DNA of 64,000 nucleotides from Antedon mediterranea (taxonomy: Eukaryota > Echinodermata > Crinoidea > Comatulida > Antedonidae), in contig NC_092670.1 in the NCBI RefSeq assembly GCF_964355755.1, forward strand, positions 18,537,201 through 18,601,200, in the 5' to 3' direction. The position numbers were made by a program, and so were the translations under genes. Below the pieces are notes generated by a model. It was not told where the DNA came from. It did no database searches and saw nothing but the letters and a program-made list of their open reading frames with translations. Shown piece by piece: positions 5,826 to 40,241 of this stretch (positions within the stretch are counted from its first letter, which is position 1; every line of letters begins with the position of its first letter).

Positions 5826-8800
5826 TTATTGCATCTCCTGCTTGCCACCCCATGGGTACACCAAGTAGCCAGTCAGCAAGTCTTTTCCAACTGAATGCCA
5901 CAAGGCCTTGTACTTAGTCTGTTTATCATCCAGTAGATCTGCAGCCATCACCTTCCGTAACGACATTGGTTTCATCTGCGGACAGAGTAAATTTCAAGTT
6001 CAATTGTTTCCCACAATACAATATACTGAAACATTTGATAAATTAGTAAATATAATTGTGTGAGGACGCATTAAGCCAAGGTTTTAAGTTAAACAAATTG
6101 CCTCATATTTGCAGGATTGTCATCACTGGAACCAAAGGCTCCAAGCTAGGAATGTAATGTGAATCCAAATAATCATCGGCAATGCAGACATTAAAAACAC
6201 ATCAATAGACAAAGCATTTTGGCATTAGACAACCTGCAATCACATATGGACATCTACTCACTTTTAAAAGCAGCCAGCCACATTTGTTATTTTGCAACAT
6301 TGAATGAAAAGTAATGCCATCAACCATGAAGCCTCCAGTCCACAAAATTAAGGAATACAGTGGAAATGTGTTTATAGATACGATTAAACTGGCAACCAAC
6401 GATTGTGGAATTAATACTGCAAGTCGAAGCTGGTGGTTAAAAATAAAAAATTATTTTAAAAATTTTCTCAATGAGAAATCAAACCTGTAATGTATAACAA
6501 ACATTTTATAGCCAATTTTTCATACAATATACATAAACTATTATATTTAAATGATTAAAGTCATTTACCGATGTAAACACAGCATAAAAGAATGCAGTCG
6601 TTGGAAGAAGAAAAAGCAGTATCGTGAAGAGCAATGTTCCGATGAATAACTGATCCACACGGAAGTCGCTGGAATCAACACGCTGACGAAGAACATTCCA
6701 CTTTTTACCACGGAATAAACGCCAAAACGACATCAGCCCATGCACTTGTAAGCAGTAAATCCTGTAAGATAAATGTGATAAATAAAAACCTAAAGATCAC
6801 ATTAAGCCAAATTTAAATGGATTAAATGATTTTAAATTGTTCTTAGATCAGCAATTAAAACAAATTATAAAATCATTATAGGCTTTGCTATTCAATGAGT
6901 TTTCTCATCATTTCCAAGAACATTGTGTCCAATCACAATTTGTATTCCATTTTGTTATCCAATCAAATCAGACTGCTTTAAATGTATTTGGTTAAATCTC
7001 AAGAACCATAGTTGACAGACCACTTTGAAATAGTTCCCTATCATTTGATGGCTGCGATTTATCAATCATCTGCTTATTTTTACATTAATATTTGTTTTTT
7101 TTTAAACATTAGAACGTTTTTAAATCCGAGCCCCAGCATATGGCAAGTATTGTATTACTGTCATGTCCACGTACCTTGCTGCGTATACATAGAAACAGTA
7201 TACATGGAATGTTAGAATAGATAGGACATCCGAGGCCAATGCAATGACTACACTAACACCTAGGCACCCACAGAGGCTGGCGAACTTGATGGCGACTGCT
7301 AGAAACGGAGCAATGGTGTTGAGGTAGCCCACCCAGAGGTAGATGTGGTAGAGAAAGAACTGGCCTAGGAATGAAGCCAGCTCTCTGTTGAGCTTTAGGC
7401 CGGCTGGAGCACCCATCAACCAATGCAAGAGCTGTTCTAGAGAGGCTGCAGTTATCTGAAATCAAAAAGTAAGACAGTTACAATACCATTACACTCTACA
7501 ATTTAGCCAATTTAAATTGAAAGGCTTTTGGCCCAATTGTATCTTCCATGATTACACCCTCCCTACACCTATCTGCAATATATTCACTCACATTGACAAA
7601 CTGCAAAAACATGGATGCTAGAATGTTGAAGAAATCAACCTGGTGAAAATAAAATACTAGAGCCATACCTAGTACAAGGTCAACCACCAGAAGCAGCAGC
7701 AAATTCATTTCCCTAAAATACATTAAAAAAAAATTACTAAATTAATGTGATAATTATTAGATAAATATTAGCAAGATCTGGATTTTTTTGCAAGAATTAT
7801 CAGATCGGCGAGTGAAGGTAGTTTATCTTCAACCTTGATGTCAGAGCACATGATCATCATCAAACCATCTTGCAATTTAATACAAACCCGAGAAATATTG
7901 GTTGGACCACATACCTGTTAAAATGGCGATTTGTTTTATAAAGCATTGAACATTCTTTAATTTGATTGTACTTTTCCTTTAGCTGGCACCCAGTTGCTGG
8001 CCAACAAAGTATTTTATCAAAAATAAAATTATGGAATATTCTGCGGGGAAAAATGATATCAATGCATAAATTACTGCAGGTCTTTTATGTTATTTACAGG
8101 AATTATCTTTTTCTATTCTATGGAGGTAAATTAAATGTGGTTTAAAAAAACTTGAGTTCAGACCGGCGAGTGAAGGTAGACTATCGTCACAATAACTTCA
8201 GAACACATGATCATCATAACAAGTTTGGTAGATATTTGGATAAATAGGAGTAAGAAACGATTATATTTACTTATGTGAGAATATATTCAGGATCCAGGCA
8301 AGCAGGTTTAGAGAACATCTAGCTATTAATAGCCAAACAGAATAGCACAAATCTCGAAAGGAGGTATTTAATTTCTTTATTTGTATTTGTTCTAAATCAC
8401 AACATTCATTCAATGAGTTCCAATCGTGCAGGCAAGCCATCACATGATTCACCAATTTGCCGTTTTTTAAGCAGCTATCCCGAATAGAATAATGCGCACT
8501 TTTTGTTTGGTATTCAACTGATGGGTCATATGCAATAAACATTGTATTGTCCTCTATCGAAACATGCCTGCCCTTCGTTTGGCGAATAACAACACATTCA
8601 TGCGGTGAGCCTCGCCAATCAGATTGCATTAGTAAACATATCTCCATCTCCAAACACAAATCATCAAAATGTTTACTCTTCAAAATCTGTTCATTCTCAT
8701 TTACTAAAATCCCAACAACTTGAAAGCTCTTCTCACCTATGACCGTACTTTTATCCTCAATTCTTCGGATACGTGCATTCAAATCTTTGATAAACCCCAA

Positions 8801-8944
8801 CATTTGTTCCTCTGGAAACTCCTGTTGTACAACGGATGCGACAGTTACAGACGATTGTTTCTTGTTGACTACTCCAATCAGTACTCCAGAGGGCAGGCTC
8901 CATGAGCTTTTTGGGTAAAACACCTTCCAAAGCGTTTGCTCCAT
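5826..8944 (-). CDS. PIGQ: Phosphatidylinositol N-acetylglucosaminyltransferase subunit Q (GPI1)
   Basis: PIGQ is a membrane subunit of the GPI-GlcNAc transferase of the endoplasmic reticulum, which makes the first GPI-anchor intermediate (family knowledge). Seven coding exons on the minus strand, in transcript order: 8944-8271, 8040-7915, 7712-7592, 7455-7175, 6761-6569, 6429-6262, 5975-5826. All phases join cleanly to 570 residues, close to the shorter human isoform. The diagnostic core is very well conserved: [62 protein letters not shown] and [20 protein letters not shown]. The last four exons hold several hydrophobic membrane segments. The start [15 protein letters not shown] is chosen because an in-frame 3' splice site lies 5 nt upstream and the N-terminus resembles the human start. 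Introns 1 and 2 of the coding part, and the 5'-UTR introns upstream, carry snoRNA-like sequences. Confidence 0.94.
7795..7865 (-). ncRNA. Box C/D snoRNA-like copy 1 (PIGQ intron between exons 8040-7915 and 7712-7592)
   Basis: Read on the minus strand: C box ATGATGA (7860-7854), D' box CTGA, C' box TGAAGAT, guide TACCTTCACTCGCCGAT, D box CTGA (7803-7800). The D box lies 87 nt upstream of the 3' splice site at 7713, close to the spacing favoured for intronic C/D snoRNAs. The terminal stem is weak. It is in the same orientation as the host gene. Confidence 0.72.
8151..8224 (-). ncRNA. Box C/D snoRNA-like copy 2 (PIGQ intron after the start-codon exon)
   Basis: C box ATGATGA (8217-8211), D' box TTCTGA, C' box TGACGAT, guide TACCTTCACTCGCCGGT, D box CTGA (8161-8158). 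Flanks CTTG and CAAG can pair as a terminal stem. The D box is about 117 nt from the 3' splice site at 8041. The core is nearly identical to copies 4 and 6. Confidence 0.78.
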
Positions 8945-9017
8945 CTTTACTAAAACAAAGAGAATATTAATTAATACCAAATTTAAACTGCAACAAAAAT
9001 TAATACAGTATAATATA

Positions 9018-9090
9018 AGTTTATCAGACCGGCGAGTGAAGGTATAATTATCATCAAACATTATGTAAGAACACATAGTCATCATCTAAA
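9018..9090 (-). ncRNA. Box C/D snoRNA-like copy 3 (last 5'-UTR intron of PIGQ)
   Basis: C box ATGATGA (9085-9079), C' box TGATGAT, guide TACCTTCACTCGCCGGT, D box CTGA (9027-9024). The D' position reads TCTTA rather than CTGA. TTTA/TAAA flanks give a short stem. The D box is 74 nt from the 3' splice site that opens the start-codon exon (8949). Confidence 0.72.
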
Positions 9091-9129
9091 TATCTTACTA
9101 AATCAACAACTATACTAGTCCTTTCTTAC

Positions 9130-9174
9130 CACTATAGACTGTGCACTTCTGTTTCTAGGACATCAGCATTATTC
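9130..9174 (-). other. PIGQ: Predicted PIGQ 5'-UTR exon
   Basis: A 45-nt exon between acceptor CTGTTTGCAG and donor G/GTAAGAAAG on the minus strand, lying between snoRNA-like copies 4 and 3. It holds a short upstream frame (ATGCTGATGTCCTAG) and no coding similarity. Confidence 0.55.
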
Positions 9175-9252
9175 CTGCAAACAGATAAAAAATAATGTAT
9201 TAAAATATGAATCCGTAAAATGCACTCATTGTTTTTTAAGGGATTCAACGAC

Positions 9253-9323
9253 TTGTTTCAGATCGGCGAGTGAAGGTAGTTTATCGTCACAATAACTTCA
9301 GAACGCATAATCATCATAAAGTT
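9253..9323 (-). ncRNA. Box C/D snoRNA-like copy 4 (PIGQ 5'-UTR intron)
   Basis: C box ATGATGA (9317-9311), D' TTCTGA, C' TGACGAT, guide TACCTTCACTCGCCGAT, D box CTGA (9261-9258). ACTT/AAGT flanks can pair. The D box is 83 nt upstream of the acceptor of the 9174-9130 exon. Confidence 0.78.
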
Positions 9324-9363
9324 AGACATACTTTTTTGGTTCTTAATTTTATCTTCATCTTAC

Positions 9364-9400
9364 CATTATTTTCGCGTCAGTAAACTATTTGATTTCACAT
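9364..9400 (-). other. PIGQ: Predicted PIGQ 5'-UTR exon
   Basis: A 37-nt exon on the minus strand with acceptor ATTCCCCAG and donor ATG/GTAAGATG, between snoRNA-like copies 5 and 4. Non-coding. Confidence 0.5.
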
Positions 9401-9473
9401 CTGGGGAATATAAATGAAATAATAATAAACAGATGCTAAAAATAGATTTTATAAAAATCTTGAATACGATTAA

Positions 9474-9548
9474 GACATTTCAGATCGGCGAGTGAAGGTA
9501 CTGTATCTTCATTACAAGTATCTGAACACATGATCATCATTTCGTGTC
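9474..9548 (-). ncRNA. Box C/D snoRNA-like copy 5 (PIGQ 5'-UTR intron)
   Basis: C box ATGATGA (9540-9534), a D'-like TTCAGA, C' TGAAGAT, guide TACCTTCACTCGCCGAT, D box CTGA (9483-9480). GACA/TGTC flanks form a stem. The D box is 79 nt upstream of the acceptor at 9401. The spacer between D' and C' differs from copies 2, 4 and 6, while the guide is unchanged. Confidence 0.77.
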
Positions 9549-9678
9549 AAAATAAAACTCTGCTGCTTCCATTAAAATTCTAGTTTTAGTGTTTGTCCAT
9601 AAAACCCCAGCCCCCATATTTACCCAGAATACATTTACATTTCATGCCTTTAGTGGTAGTGCCATACAATATTCTCAC

Positions 9679-9740
9679 CTCAGACCTGGTATAGAAATCA
9701 GTGGTAACTATTTTACAGTTAAACATCTTGGGCCTATATC
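9679..9740 (-). other. PIGQ: Predicted PIGQ 5'-UTR exon
   Basis: A 62-nt exon on the minus strand: acceptor with a good pyrimidine tract, GATTTTCTTATAG, and donor GAG/GTGAGAAT. It separates snoRNA-like copies 6 and 5. Non-coding. Confidence 0.5.
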
Positions 9741-9798
9741 CTATAAGAAAATCGAAACAAGCTTATTTATTGCATTAACATCTATGTATAGACTCGCT

Positions 9799-10750
9799 TA
9801 GTCTGGGTTCCAGACGGAGTTTTGTCTTAATATTAGTAAAAAGATAAATATTTTGGCACATATGGCGTTTCATACGTATACTACTTGATTTTGGATACTC
9901 CGTCTGGGGAAACACGCACAAGTCACGTGGTTTGACACCAAGAATTCTTGGTGCATACGATTATCCGGTTGACTAGTTTCAGCTGCATGCGATTGGCTAC
10001 TCACTCGTACACCGTTTTAATATTCATATTTCAGAATTTCAAAGACTTAACAACTAAGATGATGCGCATGCGCTATGTTACTTTTAGACAATGTGTACTT
10101 GGGTATTTTCTGAAGGCTAGAAATTATTTTATATGCCTAGTAGTCTGGTAAACATTTGATGGGATTTTTCCCAAGAACATGAAAACTCGTCTTGATATGA
10201 TAGGCTAGCTTCTCCGCAAATCAAACATTGAATGGATCATTTATTACGTGGAGATAATTTTGATTTCCCACCCAGACCCTGTCCTGTTCTGTGTGGTGTG
10301 TAGCCCTGTTGTGTGCCGGTGGTATAGGCCTACTTTATTGGCGTTTTATTTGGCAGGTCATACGTGCGAGTTGAGTAGGACCTACGAAAGAGGCCTAGCT
10401 AGGCCAAGGACTAAACAATTAATAAACCGGGTTAATAAACAAAACAACTTGGCATTACGATTTAGTATATTTCAACAGTCTCGATCGTACATTCAGCACT
10501 GTCCGTACTCGATCTTTTTCATTTTGAAACAAAATGATCATTGGTTGATTCGAAATCCATATTTACATACCGCCCGCCCCATATAGCCAAATACGGTATG
10601 ATAACCTACGTCATTCTTATCGGATGTTTGCGGTCTGCAAATCGATTTCTATACGTGTTTCACAAGTCTGTATTTTCAGACAAAAATCGCGGTCGAAATA
10701 AAAACAAATAAATTTAAAAAAAAGATAATACAGACTTGGGGCAAGTCTAA
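9799..10750. mobile_element. Non-autonomous hAT-like element, copy A
   Basis: Starts TAGTCTGGGTTCCAGACGG and ends GGGGCAAGTCTAA. It is flanked by an exact 8-bp duplication GACTCGCT (9791-9798 and 10751-10758). It is close in sequence along its whole length to copy B at 27129-28071. The 8-bp duplication points to hAT. It sits in a PIGQ 5'-UTR intron. The 112-residue open frame inside is not kept in copy B. Confidence 0.85.
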
Positions 10751-10811
10751 GACTCGCTCATCAAATTTATGAAAAAACTGCCACCATATCAGTAATAATT
10801 TTTAATAAAGA

Positions 10812-10889
10812 GACTTGTTCAGATCGGCGAGTGAAGGTAGACTATCGTCACAATAACTTCAGAACACATGATCATCATTTTTACAAGTC
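10812..10889 (-). ncRNA. Box C/D snoRNA-like copy 6 (PIGQ 5'-UTR intron)
   Basis: The best-formed copy. A 7-bp terminal stem GACTTGT/ACAAGTC encloses C box ATGATGA (10878-10872), D' TTCTGA, C' TGACGAT, guide TACCTTCACTCGCCGAT and D box CTGA (10822-10819). A 952-bp hAT-like element (9799-10750) has inserted between this copy and its 3' splice site at 9741. Without the insertion and its duplicated 8 bp, the spacing would be about 118 nt. Confidence 0.8.
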
Positions 10890-10999
10890 ATTGTCTTTTT
10901 GTCATTATATTGTACTGTATAATATTGTTGGTCCAGATCCTTCACTGAGTTAGTGAGAAGTCGAATAAATAAAAATAAATAAATACTGTAAATACCTAC

Positions 11000-11046
11000 C
11001 TTTTGGTTAATCAAGGATGCTTTTGAAGGCTTCAGTTTAGTTCTAT
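11000..11046 (-). other. PIGQ: Predicted PIGQ 5'-UTR exon
   Basis: A 47-nt exon on the minus strand with acceptor AATTTTCAG and donor AAAG/GTAGGTATT, between snoRNA-like copies 7 and 6. Non-coding. Confidence 0.52.
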
Positions 11047-11120
11047 CTGAAAATTAAAAAAAACGTGAACAAGAAAGTTTGAAGTTTGTAATTGCAATGT
11101 TAATTATTATTAATATTAGG

Positions 11121-11188
11121 ACATTGTTCAGATCGGCAAATTATTTATATCACAACGAAGTTCAATTAATTTAATCATCATAACAATG
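11121..11188 (-). ncRNA. Box C/D snoRNA-like copy 7, guide diverged (first PIGQ intron)
   Basis: A perfect 7-bp stem CATTGTT/AACAATG flanks C box ATGATGA (11181-11175) and D box CTGA (11131-11128). Only GCCGAT next to the D box survives of the shared guide; the rest is AT-rich. It sits 81 nt upstream of the 3' splice site of the 11046-11000 exon. Either a decaying copy or one with a changed target. Confidence 0.55.
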
Positions 11189-11336: not shown

Positions 11337-14300
11337 CAGCCCACGAATTTCACGTCGGCAATCGGCAATTGCCGACCTTATTGCCGACCTTAAATTGTCA
11401 GAGGACGGCAAGAGATTGCCGACCTAGAAACTAGGCTAGATCCCTCCTTTCAAGCCTCCTAGTAGGGATAACGATGTAAAATTAAAAGTTAATATTTTTC
11501 CAACAAATTATACATTGCCTGTTAGTATTTTGTATCAATATTATAATAAAGAAAGAATTATGAAAATATGACTTGTAGTTTTCGAAATATAGGGTTTAAA
11601 ACATCGCCGAAAATGATCGTTTTTAGCCACGAACGATGTAAACAAATTGCACCCTCAGTCGACAATTGTATGAACTAGTCATTTTTCGTAAAAATAATTA
11701 TATAAAATCACGATTTTAAGTAACATATTTTATATATCAACATTGTAAAATTCAATAAAATATGATATTACTTATTTATTATATAAAAAAGAGTGTTTAT
11801 TTAACCTCGTTCGAAGAATTTCAATGCATTATTTTCCTGTGTAATTGGACAGGCCTGACACCATGTGACTTCACGGCACTCGCGAGAAAATTATTCCGCT
11901 GTGTGTTGAATCGCGTCAACCAATCAAAGGGCGAGAATCCAAAATCGTTCAACCGTGAGACTTGTGGAGCGGTCGAATGCGGAGGTTTGATTGGCTTGCG
12001 ATGACATCATACCATAAAATGGCGTTTTTGTAGTTGAGCCCCTCGGAATTTTTCAAAAATTATTTAAAAAATGGACTAAACGGATATTTTTTATGGTATA
12101 TGGGTTGTTACTATGAAATATTCGAATCATAAAGGCCTCATATCGGGATAAAATTGTTTTTTTAGCAGTTAAAATTAATATTTTTCTTAGTAACAAGCAC
12201 ATGGTATGTGGAACTATATTATCTTGGTGTAGGAATAAAAAACATTTTGAGGTCATAAGAGGCTCAACTACAAAAATAAGGTTGAAATGGTAGGTCATTG
12301 AGCCTTCCGAGGGTTTCGTAGTAAACAAAAGCTATACGCGCTAGGCGATAACGATCTTTTAACCACTATATTCACATTTTTGGTTGAATGAAATGGAAAT
12401 AAAAAATACTTGATCTTATAGAATAATAGGTAAATAAATATATACTCAAAATGATATATTTATAATTAATTTATTTTCAGAACAATTACCTAATAAAAAG
12501 TGTTTACCAAAGTAAAAAAACACCGCGTAAATGACATTGCGCGCATAGTAACGTGCGCGCTGTTTAATCGTGGTAATGAAAATGGAGTCAGCTCTCGGTA
12601 TCCCTACTCCTAGCAACAACATGGTACTTTAAGGGATCGTATCATTGAAATTTTAACAGGCATATTCACCACCATGTTGTGTTTAGTTAACAAACCATGG
12701 AATTAAGATGATCCCTGAATTCACTCAACCATTACATCATTTTGTGTGTGAGCTGCATGCTTTCGATCCTATCAACCATGGATTAAAGAATAGAAGGATA
12801 TGCATCGACGGTGACATCAAACGATTTTACAACGCGCTTGCCTATACTAAAGCACTGCTGCCAATCAAACAAACACGTTCATTGAACTCCATGTCTCTAA
12901 CCGCGGCCCTCTGTAAAACGCTGCGAATCAACTGTTACATTTTTTTGAGACCAAAACGTAACCATGTAGAAATCGTATGCGCAGTCTGAATGTTCTATTG
13001 ACATGTCTGCGTCGATGATTAATTGATAACAAACATATATTGCTGAATAATTCTGTTTTAGTTTCATCACAATCGGACTACGAAAAGTTCACTTTCTTAC
13101 GACTGGTAATTTTAAGTAGTTGGTAATATTAATAAAATATGCAATTTTTATATTTGAATTATCATTATTTGCCTGCCATCTTCTGTCATTAAAAATTGCG
13201 TTAATCTATAGAATATTAAATTTTGCATTTGACCATGTATGTTGTTAGCGTGGCCTGTGTTCAGACATACAACAATCGTGTTTTTTAATATATGGCTAAG
13301 CAGTGGTTTCTTCATAAATCTCCTTAATTATCGATGTGATTATATTTAAACTGTAGTGCCTGGTGATTGGCTAGTGGTTATGTCATCCACATCACATCCA
13401 ATCACCGGGCCTAATTGAATGAAAACAGCGATCCCTGATCCGGGATTGGCTGGCTATGTATAGTTGCGATTCGTTACCTAGCGGTCATTTTGAAAAGTAC
13501 ACGCAGGGCAAACTTGATCACGAACAAACGAAGTAGGCCTACCTATTATTATTCACACAAGAAGTAAGACAACGGTGAGTATTTAAGATTAGCCTAGGCC
13601 TACCTAGGCAGTATCAATGTCGGCAAATCATAGGGTTTACTAGCCCAGTTTAGCCTAGTTAGTACAAGGCCTAGCTAGGCTAGCATTCTTGCTGATTTTG
13701 TAATTTTACAACAAATGAGACAACTAATAGTTATTGTCTCAGATGTAGGGCTACTACAGGTCATAAAATGCTACTTTAATCATCATAAAAAAATCATTAG
13801 CGTAGATCAATCGCGGCAGAAACCAACATAGTCAATAGTTGACCATAAACATCATGCAACCAAAGAACGCGCGAAAGAAGCGTAGCCAACTAGGTTAAAT
13901 GTCGTTGCACATGTGCAGTAAACAATATATTAGGCACGCGACCGTTTCGTTGTTACCCTGCGGTTAATTAAACTGTAACATTGTGGGCGGTCCGCAGTCT
14001 GTCGGCGAGAGTCAAGGAACCCTTGATCTCACGTCGATGCATATCCTTCTATTCTTTAATCCATGTATCAACCAAGCTGGCTGGGCACAGCGCTGTGCGC
14101 GACAGACCTGTGTAGGGGAATACCCTGTTATGCCAAGCAAGCAACTATGCTCTGTGTACGGCTAGCTCCAGAACCATGATGTTCAGCAATTAATTATCAA
14201 ATAGAATTTATCTTGTAGATTTTAGTGTTAGGTTTTTATATTTTAGTTAATTTTGCTAGTTCTTTTTGCATAACATATAGGCCTAGGCTCTAGCTAGCTA

Positions 14301-18464: not shown

Positions 18465-20869
18465 TCATCCGCTTAATTCTGAATCTGATCCAAATATCTC
18501 CTCTTCTTGATGAAAATTACTGGACATTGTTGCAGCCTGGGATGCAAGACTAGCCATCCCCCACAATCCACCAAACTGTGGTGGTGGTAAACTCGTTGAC
18601 TGGTCACTGTTTTCATTTGAATCAATGTAGGAATCTGTAAACGCTTGTTGAGTTTCATCGTCAGTTAAGTTAGTGTCTGTCTCCTCAACGTCTTGTTTTG
18701 ATTCTTCTTTTTGAAATGGATCACATATTTCTAAACTTTCCACAGTGTTCTTGTCTTGGCAAAACTCCCCCTGACCTATAATATTAAAAGATAGGAATAC
18801 ATTACCAGGCAGTAAAGGCAATAGTAGTACATGGAAACAGAATATTTTATATTGACAACATTATCATATCTTTACAAAAAAGGCAGACAATTTTACAATG
18901 TATTGACAATGTACAACAACAACAAAATACAAAGCCACTTGTCATATATACCAGAATTACCTTCTCTATTTTCTGGAACATCTCTATATCTTGGCATTCC
19001 CTGGTTTTCCACTGTATTTTGGATATCACCATCGGAATTGATTATGTTATTAGTTTTGCCATCTCTACCCTTTTGTTTAAGTTCTTCTCTTACCGCCATT
19101 CGTCCTGGCAAGACTGATCTCAATTCTACAAGGAGCTGCAATGATGCTTGCCGTTCCTTACGCTGCTTCTCGGTTTCTTCCTGATACAAATGTCTATTGG
19201 AATATTTATCCGGATCTTTCTCATCAGGATCAGTGTAAGCCTCAAATGTCTCATCATCAAATTTAATCTCATTATCCTTCAAACCAAATAACTGGATTGG
19301 TTCTTGCGATGGATTTTCTAAACTGTCACCAAGAAAATCTGATTGGTTAGGAATGTCTGGTACTTTTTCTTTATCAGTGAATAATCTATTCACTTCTGTT
19401 TCCACCTCTTGATAGCAAACCAATGAAGCTTTTAACTCTGGATTGACTGTTTCTAAAAGAGAGCTCAATTCATCTTTGATATCTTCAGAACAATCAATAG
19501 AATGGCGTCTATCTTGATTCAGTGACTCACATTTTACTTGCAAGGCGTGGATACGTTCTGCCGCAACCTGCAAGTGCAGATACATGCTGTGAGCTGCTGT
19601 CCAGATCTCTCCATATTGCCCCTTTGAATGAGAATCCAGACTGCTTCTATTAAAAACTGCATTATCATATTTGGCAGCACCAATTTTATGTGTTTCACTA
19701 ATTCTATCAAGATCGTAAAGATTTTTAATAGTGTCCGACAGTAATGATTTTGTGACTTTTTCTAAAATTGGCAAAACATCATTAAAATTTGTTTCATTTA
19801 TGTCCCATGCTTTTGAACAAAGTGATAAACCAATGCGACGAATGAACTCTGACCTCTGAACTGTCATTGTCTGCCAAACAATTTTGATGGCAGATAATGA
19901 GAAATTATCTGAAGCTTTGGTCAATTCTTGGTGATCTTGTTCTGACCAGTTACTTCTGATAAGTTGCATAAGATTCCCTTTGAACCCAAGATCCTCAATT
20001 GAAACATTTGCAATGTAGTTACAAACATTATCAACCTCTGATTGCAACCTGACTTGTTGTAGAAGCTGTCTTGTGCCATCTCGATAAGATAAAAATTGAC
20101 ACAAACATGCTTTAAAAATTGCTACTCTCAATTGTTGGAATTGTCTTTGAGATTGACCAAGCAACGAACTATTCTCCAATTTCATCAATGGGACTTTGTG
20201 CGAAACAATTGTAAACCCCCTGGCTATGAGTTCAGCTTCTTGGATATTCCTTAAGGATTTCCGAATACAACTATCCATATTTTCCATCAGACTTAGCTGC
20301 TTTGTAAACGATTTAGTGAAAAGTTTTTGTTTATTATCATAGTAGAGTGTAATAATAAACGAATACAAGTGACCAATTCCAAATAAAGTACTGGATGTTA
20401 AACAAATTGCTGTAACTATCAATTTTGATGTTATAATATTTGTTAAAGAGTTTTGTAACAGAAACCACAGACAAGCTATAGATCCAAATATGGCAGAATT
20501 GGCAATGATTAGAACTTTGGAAGCAGATTTTCGTTGTTTAATTTCTTTTCTGTCTTCTTGCAATCCATATGACAGCAGCCACTGGTGATCTCCAGGCATC
20601 AGTACTTTTGAGTTCAAGATTGAGAATCTCGTAACAAGATTCAATGAATACGGTGGTGGCGACTTTGGAAGGATAAATGAATTTACGTTCTTTAAACACA
20701 TTCTCAGGGATAACAAAACTCGTAAAAATAGACTCTTAGTCTTAGATTGTTTTCCTGCACGAGTAGACTTGGAATAAGAGGAGCTCTCAAAATTCCCAAC
20801 CATTCCAACATCCTTGAGATATTGATGGAGAGGTGAATTCTCAAACACTACATCATCGTCTTCTTCCAT
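18465..20869 (-). CDS. VEZT: Vezatin, adherens-junction transmembrane protein
   Basis: Two coding exons on the minus strand: 20869-18961 (within an exon starting 20905 after TCTTTTCAG) and 18775-18465. The join completes a Gly codon and gives 739 residues, near the human length. Vezatin is an adherens-junction membrane protein that links the cadherin-catenin complex to myosin VIIA (family knowledge). The N-terminus EDDDVVFENSPLHQYLKD matches the human start, so the Met at 20867-20869 was chosen. Two membrane segments lie at about residues 119-139 and 150-176. ARGFTIVSHKVPL and the acidic EAYTDPDEKDPDKYSNRHLYQEETEKQRKERQ region fit the vezatin core. The tail LPPPQFGGLWGMASLASQAA...EEEIFGSDSE matches the vertebrate C-terminus. 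Nearly the whole protein is in one 1.9-kb exon, unlike the many exons in vertebrates. The upstream non-coding exon was not located. Confidence 0.94.
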
Positions 20870-20965
20870 ATTTCTATCACCGAGATCGGAGGTAGTACAG
20901 TAGACCTGAAAAGACAAATAGATTAGATATAAATGGCATGCGCAATTTGTTTGTTATCAATGATT

Positions 20966-37956: not shown

Positions 37957-38427
37957 TTGTCTTATCATTAGTATTATAAAGGTTGGAGAATGAGTTTAAA
38001 CAAATGCATGCGGTAACACGCCACAGAATTAGTTCTAAAAATATATACTTCAATGGACGATCCAGTGGCCGTATTCACCATTCACACTGGGGCTAAAAAC
38101 GCTCACCCTTAAAATTGTAATAATCTCCTGTCTACATGAATACAATTTAATGGGAATACTTTTGATATTTATTGAGTTGAGTGAAATACTGAGGAAGCAT
38201 AATACATGTGCTCCTGTAAGAAGAACCAATTGTTGATATCGCATACCTTTGTTTATTATACAGTAGTAGTATTATAGATATGCTTTCACTCGTGCATATC
38301 TAGCTATAGTCTTTCATTAGGTGAATTTGAGAGTTTGTCATAAGTTTTAATTAAATAGGGAAAATGGTGAGGTAGTCAAGTACTATGCACATACAAACTC
38401 TTGCTATCTTTAAACCATATCAAATGC
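37957..38427. other. RGS9 3' flank
   Basis: No gene or repeat recognised and no clear AATAAA near the stop, so the RGS9 transcript end is not placed. Confidence 0.4.
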
Positions 38428-39195
38428 AAGGTTCACATGTGCGCATATAACAGGTTGGTTCACATGTGCACATATAACAGGTTGGTTCACATGTGCACCT
38501 ATAAAAGTTTGGTTCACATGTGTGCATATAACAGGTTGGTTCACATGTGCACCTATAACAGGTTGGTTCACATGTGCGCATATAACAGGTTGGTTCACAT
38601 GTGCACATATAGCAGGTTGGTTCACATGTGCGCATATAACAGGTTGGTTCACATGTGCACATATAGCAGGTTGGTTCACATGTGCACCTATAACAGTTTG
38701 GTTCACATGTGTGCATATAACAGGTTGGTTCACATGTGCGCATATAACAGGTTGGTTCACATGTGCGCATATAACAGGTTGGTTCACATGTGCGCATATA
38801 ACAGGTTGGTTCACATGTGCGCATATAACAGGTTGGTTCACATGTGCACCTATAACAGGTTGGTTCACATGTGTGCATATAACAGGTTGGTTCACATGTG
38901 CGCATATAACAGGTTGGTTCACATGTGCACCTATAACAGTTTGGTTCACATGTGTGCATATAACAGGTTGGTTCACATGTGCACCTATAACAGGTTGGTT
39001 CACATGTGCGCATATAACAGGTTGGTTCACATGTGTGCATATAACAGGTTGGTTCACATGTGCACCTATAACAGGTTGGTTCACATGTGCACATATAACA
39101 GGTTGGTTCACATGTGCGCATATAACAGGTTGGTTCACATGTGCGCATATATCAAGTTGGTTCACATGTGCGCATGTTAACAGGTTGGTTCACAT
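38428..39195. repeat. 27-bp minisatellite, about 28 units
   Basis: The unit reads CATGTGCGCATATAACAGG followed by TTGGTTCA. Variants fall mainly at three places: GCGCATA, GCACATA, GTGCATA or GCACCTA; AACAGG or AGCAGG; and CAGGTT or CAGTTT. Because 27 is a multiple of three and the unit lacks stops in several frames, long artificial open frames appear on both strands (up to 259 residues). Not coding. Confidence 0.95.
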
Positions 39196-40241
39196 CACTT
39201 AATTCATACATTTGACTGCCTGTACAGATATACAGCCAGCTGTTGTTTTAACTGGAATTTTGACTGCATTATGATATAGTGTAAAAAGTAAACAATATAG
39301 CAAACTTTATATAATAATAATATAACAGTATAATACAACATTTAAATGGGAATAATTATTATACTTTGTATATGACAACATTCTCAGGTTAATTATTGGA
39401 GAATGGCAATTCTGCTATTAAATTTATTTATTTTGCAATTTCTTTTCGAAAGGTGCAGCTTTGAACCTCTTTTGAATTGTGTGCTGATTGTAATTAAATG
39501 ATGGTGCAATATCTCAACATCGAAAGCTGTTGTATTCAATATTCAGCTACCTACAGTATGTGTGCTTTCGTATATTATTTAAACACTTTTATCCTTATAT
39601 TTTATGTGTCATTTTTAAAAGTACTTTTTATTACACTACTATTTATAATTAATATTTTTCTTTTGTTATTTTAACCATTCCACCTCATATTTTATGTGTT
39701 TGTCATTTTTTTTAATTGAATTTTATTATTATAGTGTCATTTTAACATTTTTCAATTAATTTCACATTCCAATGTAATGTCAGGTGTGAAATATCTCACT
39801 GTGACAGGAACATATTCTCCATATATATATATATATACATTTAATGCAAAATATAATATACAGTAGTTTTATATATTATTTCTGCAGCAAGTTGCTGGAA
39901 GTAGTAGGCCTAAGCAACAACTAAATGATGCATAGTAGGCAGTTATGTACATACTGCAGCAAGTTAGAATTACTGCAGCAGTAATAGTGCCTTAGTAGCA
40001 AATATTATATAATTGTTATGATTTTAAAAATTACTGGATTGATAATTTTGTATTGGTGGTAATAGAGTAAATTACTATAGAACCTCTCTTTGGTGACACC
40101 CCTATTAAGGTGCAACAAACGAGAGGTACCTCAATTCAAAGAACCCCACTATTATGTAACACTTTGGTTTCTAAAGGTGTCCTGTTCAATTCTACTGTAG
40201 TGTTGCTACTATGTTATGAGGTAACATTCAACAGGTCGTCT

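Follow-up and report, generated by a model that had tools for sequence, protein, structure and literature searches.

The PIGQ transcript very probably hosts a family of intron-encoded box C/D snoRNAs, six of which would guide methylation of 28S rRNA. The family lies in the window analysed here, a stretch of 64,000 nucleotides (positions 18537201–18601200 of contig C1) from an animal genome of 354 Mb in 18 contigs. It consists of seven related copies (c1 to c7) with aligned lengths of 54–62 nt from box C (ATGATGA) to box D (CTGA), all on the minus strand, which is the sense orientation for PIGQ. A first-pass annotation of this DNA had described a 60-nt sequence recurring at seven positions, and all seven copies lie exactly where it placed them (Table 1). 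Its reading of the copies as box C/D snoRNA-like intronic RNAs is strongly supported by their boxes, guide, and conservation, and it gains a predicted 28S target that had gone unnoticed.

A profile built from the seven copies matches, by construction, the same seven in the window, with E values of 4e-10 to 4e-20, while the next match has an E value of 0.026. In the other PIGQ introns, this profile search of the window revealed neither a further copy nor the remains of one.

Table 1. Features of the PIGQ locus, in window coordinates.
Feature	Position	Strand	Context or evidence
c1 snoRNA copy, 61 nt	7800..7860	-	PIGQ coding intron 7914-7713; D box 87 nt from 3′ splice site
c2 snoRNA copy, 60 nt	8158..8217	-	PIGQ coding intron 8270-8041; D box 117 nt from 3′ splice site
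c3 snoRNA copy, 62 nt	9024..9085	-	Putative intron directly preceding the start-codon exon; D box 74 nt from 3′ splice site
c4 snoRNA copy, 60 nt	9258..9317	-	Putative 5′-leader intron; D box 83 nt from 3′ splice site
c5 snoRNA copy, 61 nt	9480..9540	-	Putative 5′-leader intron; D box 79 nt from 3′ splice site
c6 snoRNA copy, 60 nt	10819..10878	-	Putative leader intron of ~1.3 kb; 7-bp terminal stem
c7 snoRNA copy, 54 nt	11128..11181	-	Putative leader intron; changed guide; 8-bp terminal stem; D box 81 nt from 3′ splice site
D-box guide of c6 (TACCTTCACTCGCCGAT)	10823..10839	-	Same element in c1-c5; 12 bp with 28S rRNA
Changed D-box guide of c7	11132..11143	-	12 bp (one G-U) with second 28S site
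PIGQ exon with start codon (ATG at 8944)	8271..8949	-	Spliced frame
PIGQ coding exon separating the c2 and c1 introns	7915..8040	-	Spliced frame
Remaining PIGQ exons (7712-7592, 7455-7175, 6761-6569, 6429-6262, 5975 to stop)	5826..7712	-	Pfam Gpi1, spliced frame
Putative leader exon, 45 nt, between c4 and c3	9130..9174	-	Splice-like sites
Putative leader exon, 37 nt, between c5 and c4	9364..9400	-	Splice-like sites
Putative leader exon, 62 nt, between c6 and c5	9679..9740	-	Splice-like sites
Putative leader exon, 47 nt, between c7 and c6	11000..11046	-	Splice-like sites

Box C reads AUGAUGA in all seven copies, in agreement with the RUGAUGA consensus, and each copy carries a CUGA box D near its 3′ end, as had been described. 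Most copies had also been credited with C′ and D′ boxes. This holds for C′ (TGANGAT), which is present in six of the seven, but D′ reads CTGA in c1, c2, c4, and c6 only. Likewise, the flanks, said often to pair, do so clearly in c1, c2, c6, and c7 but weakly in c3 and c5 and poorly in c4. Only the terminal stems of c1, c6, and c7 are better than those formed by random flanks, at a level of about 2% or better, and no copy except c7 folds more stably than its shuffled counterparts. Weak terminal stems and folds are usual for C/D RNAs; those observed here give no positive support for a C/D identity.

The host frame encodes 570 amino acids and is assembled from seven exons on the minus strand, joined via GT–AG junctions. 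We assign the gene to PIGQ because two exons of the spliced frame match the Pfam family Gpi1 (PF05024) at about 1e-31; a PDB sequence search with the protein returned no match. The position of the start codon places c1 and c2 in coding introns and c3–c7 upstream, in putative 5′-leader introns. The remaining four introns of the coding region, all within 5826..7712, contain no copies. Between the upstream copies, splice-like sites delimit four small putative leader exons, one of which (9174–9130) has an in-frame TAG ahead of the PIGQ ATG, as expected for a leader. No first exon was found upstream of c7. The earlier proposal that each copy occupies a separate PIGQ intron in sense orientation is thus borne out for the strand of all seven and for the coding introns of c1 and c2, whereas the introns of c3–c7, which precede the start codon, are predicted ones. 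Accordingly, PIGQ is a sound assignment as the host of c1 and c2, a good one for c3, and a putative one for c4–c7. If the leader-exon model is right, the seven copies would fill seven consecutive introns.

A less probable arrangement of the upstream region would assign its five copies to a separate non-coding, GAS5-like host gene that ends near PIGQ or is spliced into it. PIGQ itself would then host only two or three copies, and the function of the RNAs would be the same. In favour of this arrangement, the upstream exons are tiny (37–62 nt) and accompanied by upstream ATGs. There are also CCAAT-type boxes and an NRF1-like site (GCGCATGCGC, about 10064) in the stretch separating c5 from c6 and upstream of c7, and a gas5-like host has been described as a hotspot of snoRNA expansion (PMC2653536). 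However, small exons and copies continue to alternate without interruption into the coding introns of PIGQ, and no separate transcript is known.

The placement of the copies within their introns is consistent with intronic processing. The 3′ end of intronic C/D snoRNAs typically lies about 70–90 nt from the 3′ splice site, and in five of the seven copies the D box is 74–87 nt from this site, although for c3–c7 the distances depend on the putative leader introns. The first-pass annotation had given a range of about 74–118 nt for most D boxes; six copies fall within 74–117 nt, but c6 is an exception: its D box and the closest credible 3′ splice site are 1078 nt apart, provided that no exon near 10740 has been overlooked. 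Convincing sites for such an exon, which would bring c6 into the usual distance, are absent. The terminal stem of c6 could compensate for its long distance from the splice site.

Comparison of the copies reveals a sharp difference between functional elements and spacers. Among c1–c6, 16 of 17 guide columns are invariant, together with all seven columns of box C, all four of box D, and six of seven of C′, while only 6 of 23 spacer columns are (Fisher p 2e-5 for guide versus spacers); since the copies share descent, these columns do not count independent events. None of the nine columns between D′ and C′ is invariant. The mean pairwise identity is 0.96 over boxes and guide and 0.65 elsewhere. 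Such a contrast inside the same molecules is what is expected of guide RNAs.

This pattern also makes it unlikely that most of the copies are duplicates decaying as pseudogenes around one or two functional masters. The loss of the shared guide from c7 would fit such drift, as would the 98% identity of c2 and c6, which could be young duplicates. However, the spacers of c1, c3, and c5 have diverged while their guides and boxes are intact, suggesting that several copies are under constraint or have been homogenised.

The guide common to c1–c6 (TACCTTCACTCGCCGRT) forms 12 consecutive Watson–Crick pairs with the animal's own 28S rRNA at AGCGGCGAGTGAAG, through guide positions 3–14 upstream of box D. 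The rDNA of the genome was located on contig C2, where the 28S sequence reads CTCAGTAGCGGCGAGTGAAGCGGGAA in two of five copies and the others carry variants. The duplex has an energy of about −24 kcal/mol and falls in the register that box D requires, with guide position 2 mismatched to 28S in all six copies. Guides of this class have about 10–21 nt of complementarity to rRNA or snRNA, and the pairing spans 12 pairs in c1–c6 and 12 bp in c7. Against the 18S, 5.8S, and partial 28S of one unit (4486 nt), runs of at least 12 pairs arose by chance in 16 of 20,000 random 20-mers from the window and in 6 of 5000 shuffled guides. The short C–D′ spacer, of only about 9 nt, led us to reject a D′ guide, and the longest rRNA match of every copy lies in the D guide.

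We infer expression of these RNAs from spliced transcripts, whose introns would be debranched and trimmed down to an assembled snoRNP protecting about 60–75 nt. In c1–c6, the stretch before box D would pair with 28S at AGCGGCGAGTGAAG over 12 bp, and fibrillarin would methylate the G that pairs with the guide base five positions ahead of box D. This D+5 rule points to the second G of AGCGG, 65 nt past the first C of CCCGCTGAATTTAAG, and on this basis the complementarity predicts a Gm at the position that we take to be equivalent to human 28S G91. To our knowledge, this site near the 5′ end of 28S is not among the human 28S sites. No published guide or report for it was found in the open-access full texts searched. 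The first human-specific region of 28S has been placed at 398–400 (PMC13228274).

An extended, uninterrupted match close to the 5′ end of 28S, present in several copies that could meet a dosage need, would also fit RNAs acting mainly as pre-rRNA folding chaperones in this region. We consider this role very unlikely as a replacement for methylation guiding: the pairing sits exactly in the box D methylation register, and C′ is retained in six copies.

Several observations concern the rDNA itself. The units at C2:15.71–15.97 Mb (L006–L010, L020, and L021) differ at the predicted target, reading AGCGGCGAG, AGCGGTGAG, or AGCGCCGAG. In L009 and L010 the predicted methylated G is itself the variant position, which suggests either degenerate units or genuine rDNA heterogeneity. 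In the minus-strand unit L021, the 28S reading breaks near CTCTCTTAAGGTTAGAAA. R2 retrotransposons usually insert at TTAAGG/TAGCC, and the break at this insertion site suggests an insertion in that unit. On the antisense strand of 28S, three sites (L028–L030) read CTTCACTCGCCGCTACTGA, which corresponds to the guide core, one extra base, and CTGA. This may be a coincidence, or the guide may derive from antisense rRNA.

The family, including any distant paralogues, was sought throughout the genome by pattern and by similarity. The similarity search of the 354 Mb recovered five copies and no match beyond the PIGQ locus; for c7, too, it revealed no relative elsewhere in the genome. A 21-nt pattern of guide plus box D, allowing up to three mismatches, gave six matches, all at the PIGQ locus, and none with a control pattern. 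Genome-wide, the 12-nt guide core has a CTGA within the next 4 nt only in the same six copies and at three antisense rDNA sites. A short transposon or dispersed repeat that resembles a snoRNA by chance, which seven short copies dispersed within one gene might bring to mind and which the first-pass annotation would have recognised by occurrences at many non-intronic sites, is highly improbable and, for the assembled 354 Mb searched in these two ways, excluded: there is no further copy within three mismatches of the 21 nt or by similarity, the orientation is single, and the boxes and guide show selection-like conservation.

The manner in which the family expanded differs from what had been proposed. 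In blastn comparisons, the copies are alike up to the boundaries of the snoRNA and over at most about 10–15 nt of flank, which rules against the duplication of exon plus intron suggested earlier. Because similarity ends at these boundaries, the snoRNA alone appears to have moved or been converted between introns, and spread into the neighbouring introns would have occurred by such events.

Copy c7, previously listed among the occurrences of the 60-nt sequence, departs from this description: it is 54 nt long, its guide is changed and shortened, and the guide common to c1–c6 has been lost. It may now address another 28S site, GTCGGCAAATTA. Its new guide pairs there over 12 bp, starting from the position adjoining box D, with 11 Watson–Crick pairs and one G–U pair and an energy of −16 kcal/mol. 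An 11-pair run is expected by chance for 0.2% of random 20-mers and for 0.6% of A/T-rich guides in which the inherited GCCGAT is retained. The second target (p about 0.002–0.006) is tentative, since the match is partly inherited and several guides were examined. The site is presumably equivalent to human G2799, near Am2802.

The copies resemble the intron-encoded C/D methylation guides of animals in having boxes C, D, and C′, partly D′, and a 12-bp guide before box D, as well as in their sense orientation, their occurrence as one per intron, and their distance of mostly 74–87 nt from the 3′ splice site. Unlike those guides, they fit no Rfam family. When the Rfam C/D models were run on the copies, a check that the first-pass annotation had proposed, none reached the gathering score; there were no matches at this threshold, and the best sub-threshold ones were C/D families with E values of 0.16 and above. 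We therefore reject membership in a known Rfam C/D family.

Among the publications inspected, no relevant report of PIGQ as a snoRNA host was found, and the best-ranked matches were unrelated. Intragenic C/D duplication itself is already well documented. Members of human C/D families mostly share one host, as is typical of these families (PMC8178906), intragenic (cis) duplication is dominant for chicken C/D snoRNAs, with gas5-like hosts (PMC2653536), and snoRNAs in introns of sponge ribosomal-protein genes have been duplicated in neighbouring introns (PMC3412847). Compared with the chicken and human intragenic paralogues, the PIGQ family would comprise seven copies in seven consecutive introns, running from the leader into the coding region, with a GPI-anchor gene as host and one copy with a changed guide. 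The sponge hosts are ribosomal protein genes with few copies, whereas PIGQ is a non-translation gene. The novelty appears to lie in the host gene, in the 28S position targeted, and in c7 with its possible retargeting.

A bolder reading, which we offer tentatively, is that PIGQ acts as a one-per-intron snoRNA factory for an unreported, possibly lineage-specific methylation near the 5′ end of 28S, with c7 switched to a second 28S site. If this is true, c7 would offer a snapshot of a guide undergoing neofunctionalisation, and a single gene would display the duplication of a snoRNA, its spread into adjacent introns, and a change of guide, which bears on the origin of new rRNA modification sites. 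With its multiple copies and unexpected host, the snoRNA family also yields a specific and directly testable methylation prediction.

Other features were observed in the window. The segments 9990–10075 and 11850–12000 contain the NRF1-like GCGCATGCGC, CCAAT/ATTGG boxes, and CTCGCGAGA, and are possibly two promoters, the first of which would lie between c5 and c6. A 686-aa open frame at 18893–20953 on the minus strand marks a neighbouring gene, upstream of PIGQ and on the same strand. Finally, a long tandem repeat of HMCAYNRLV-type units occupies 38371–39202, with multiple open frames on the two strands.
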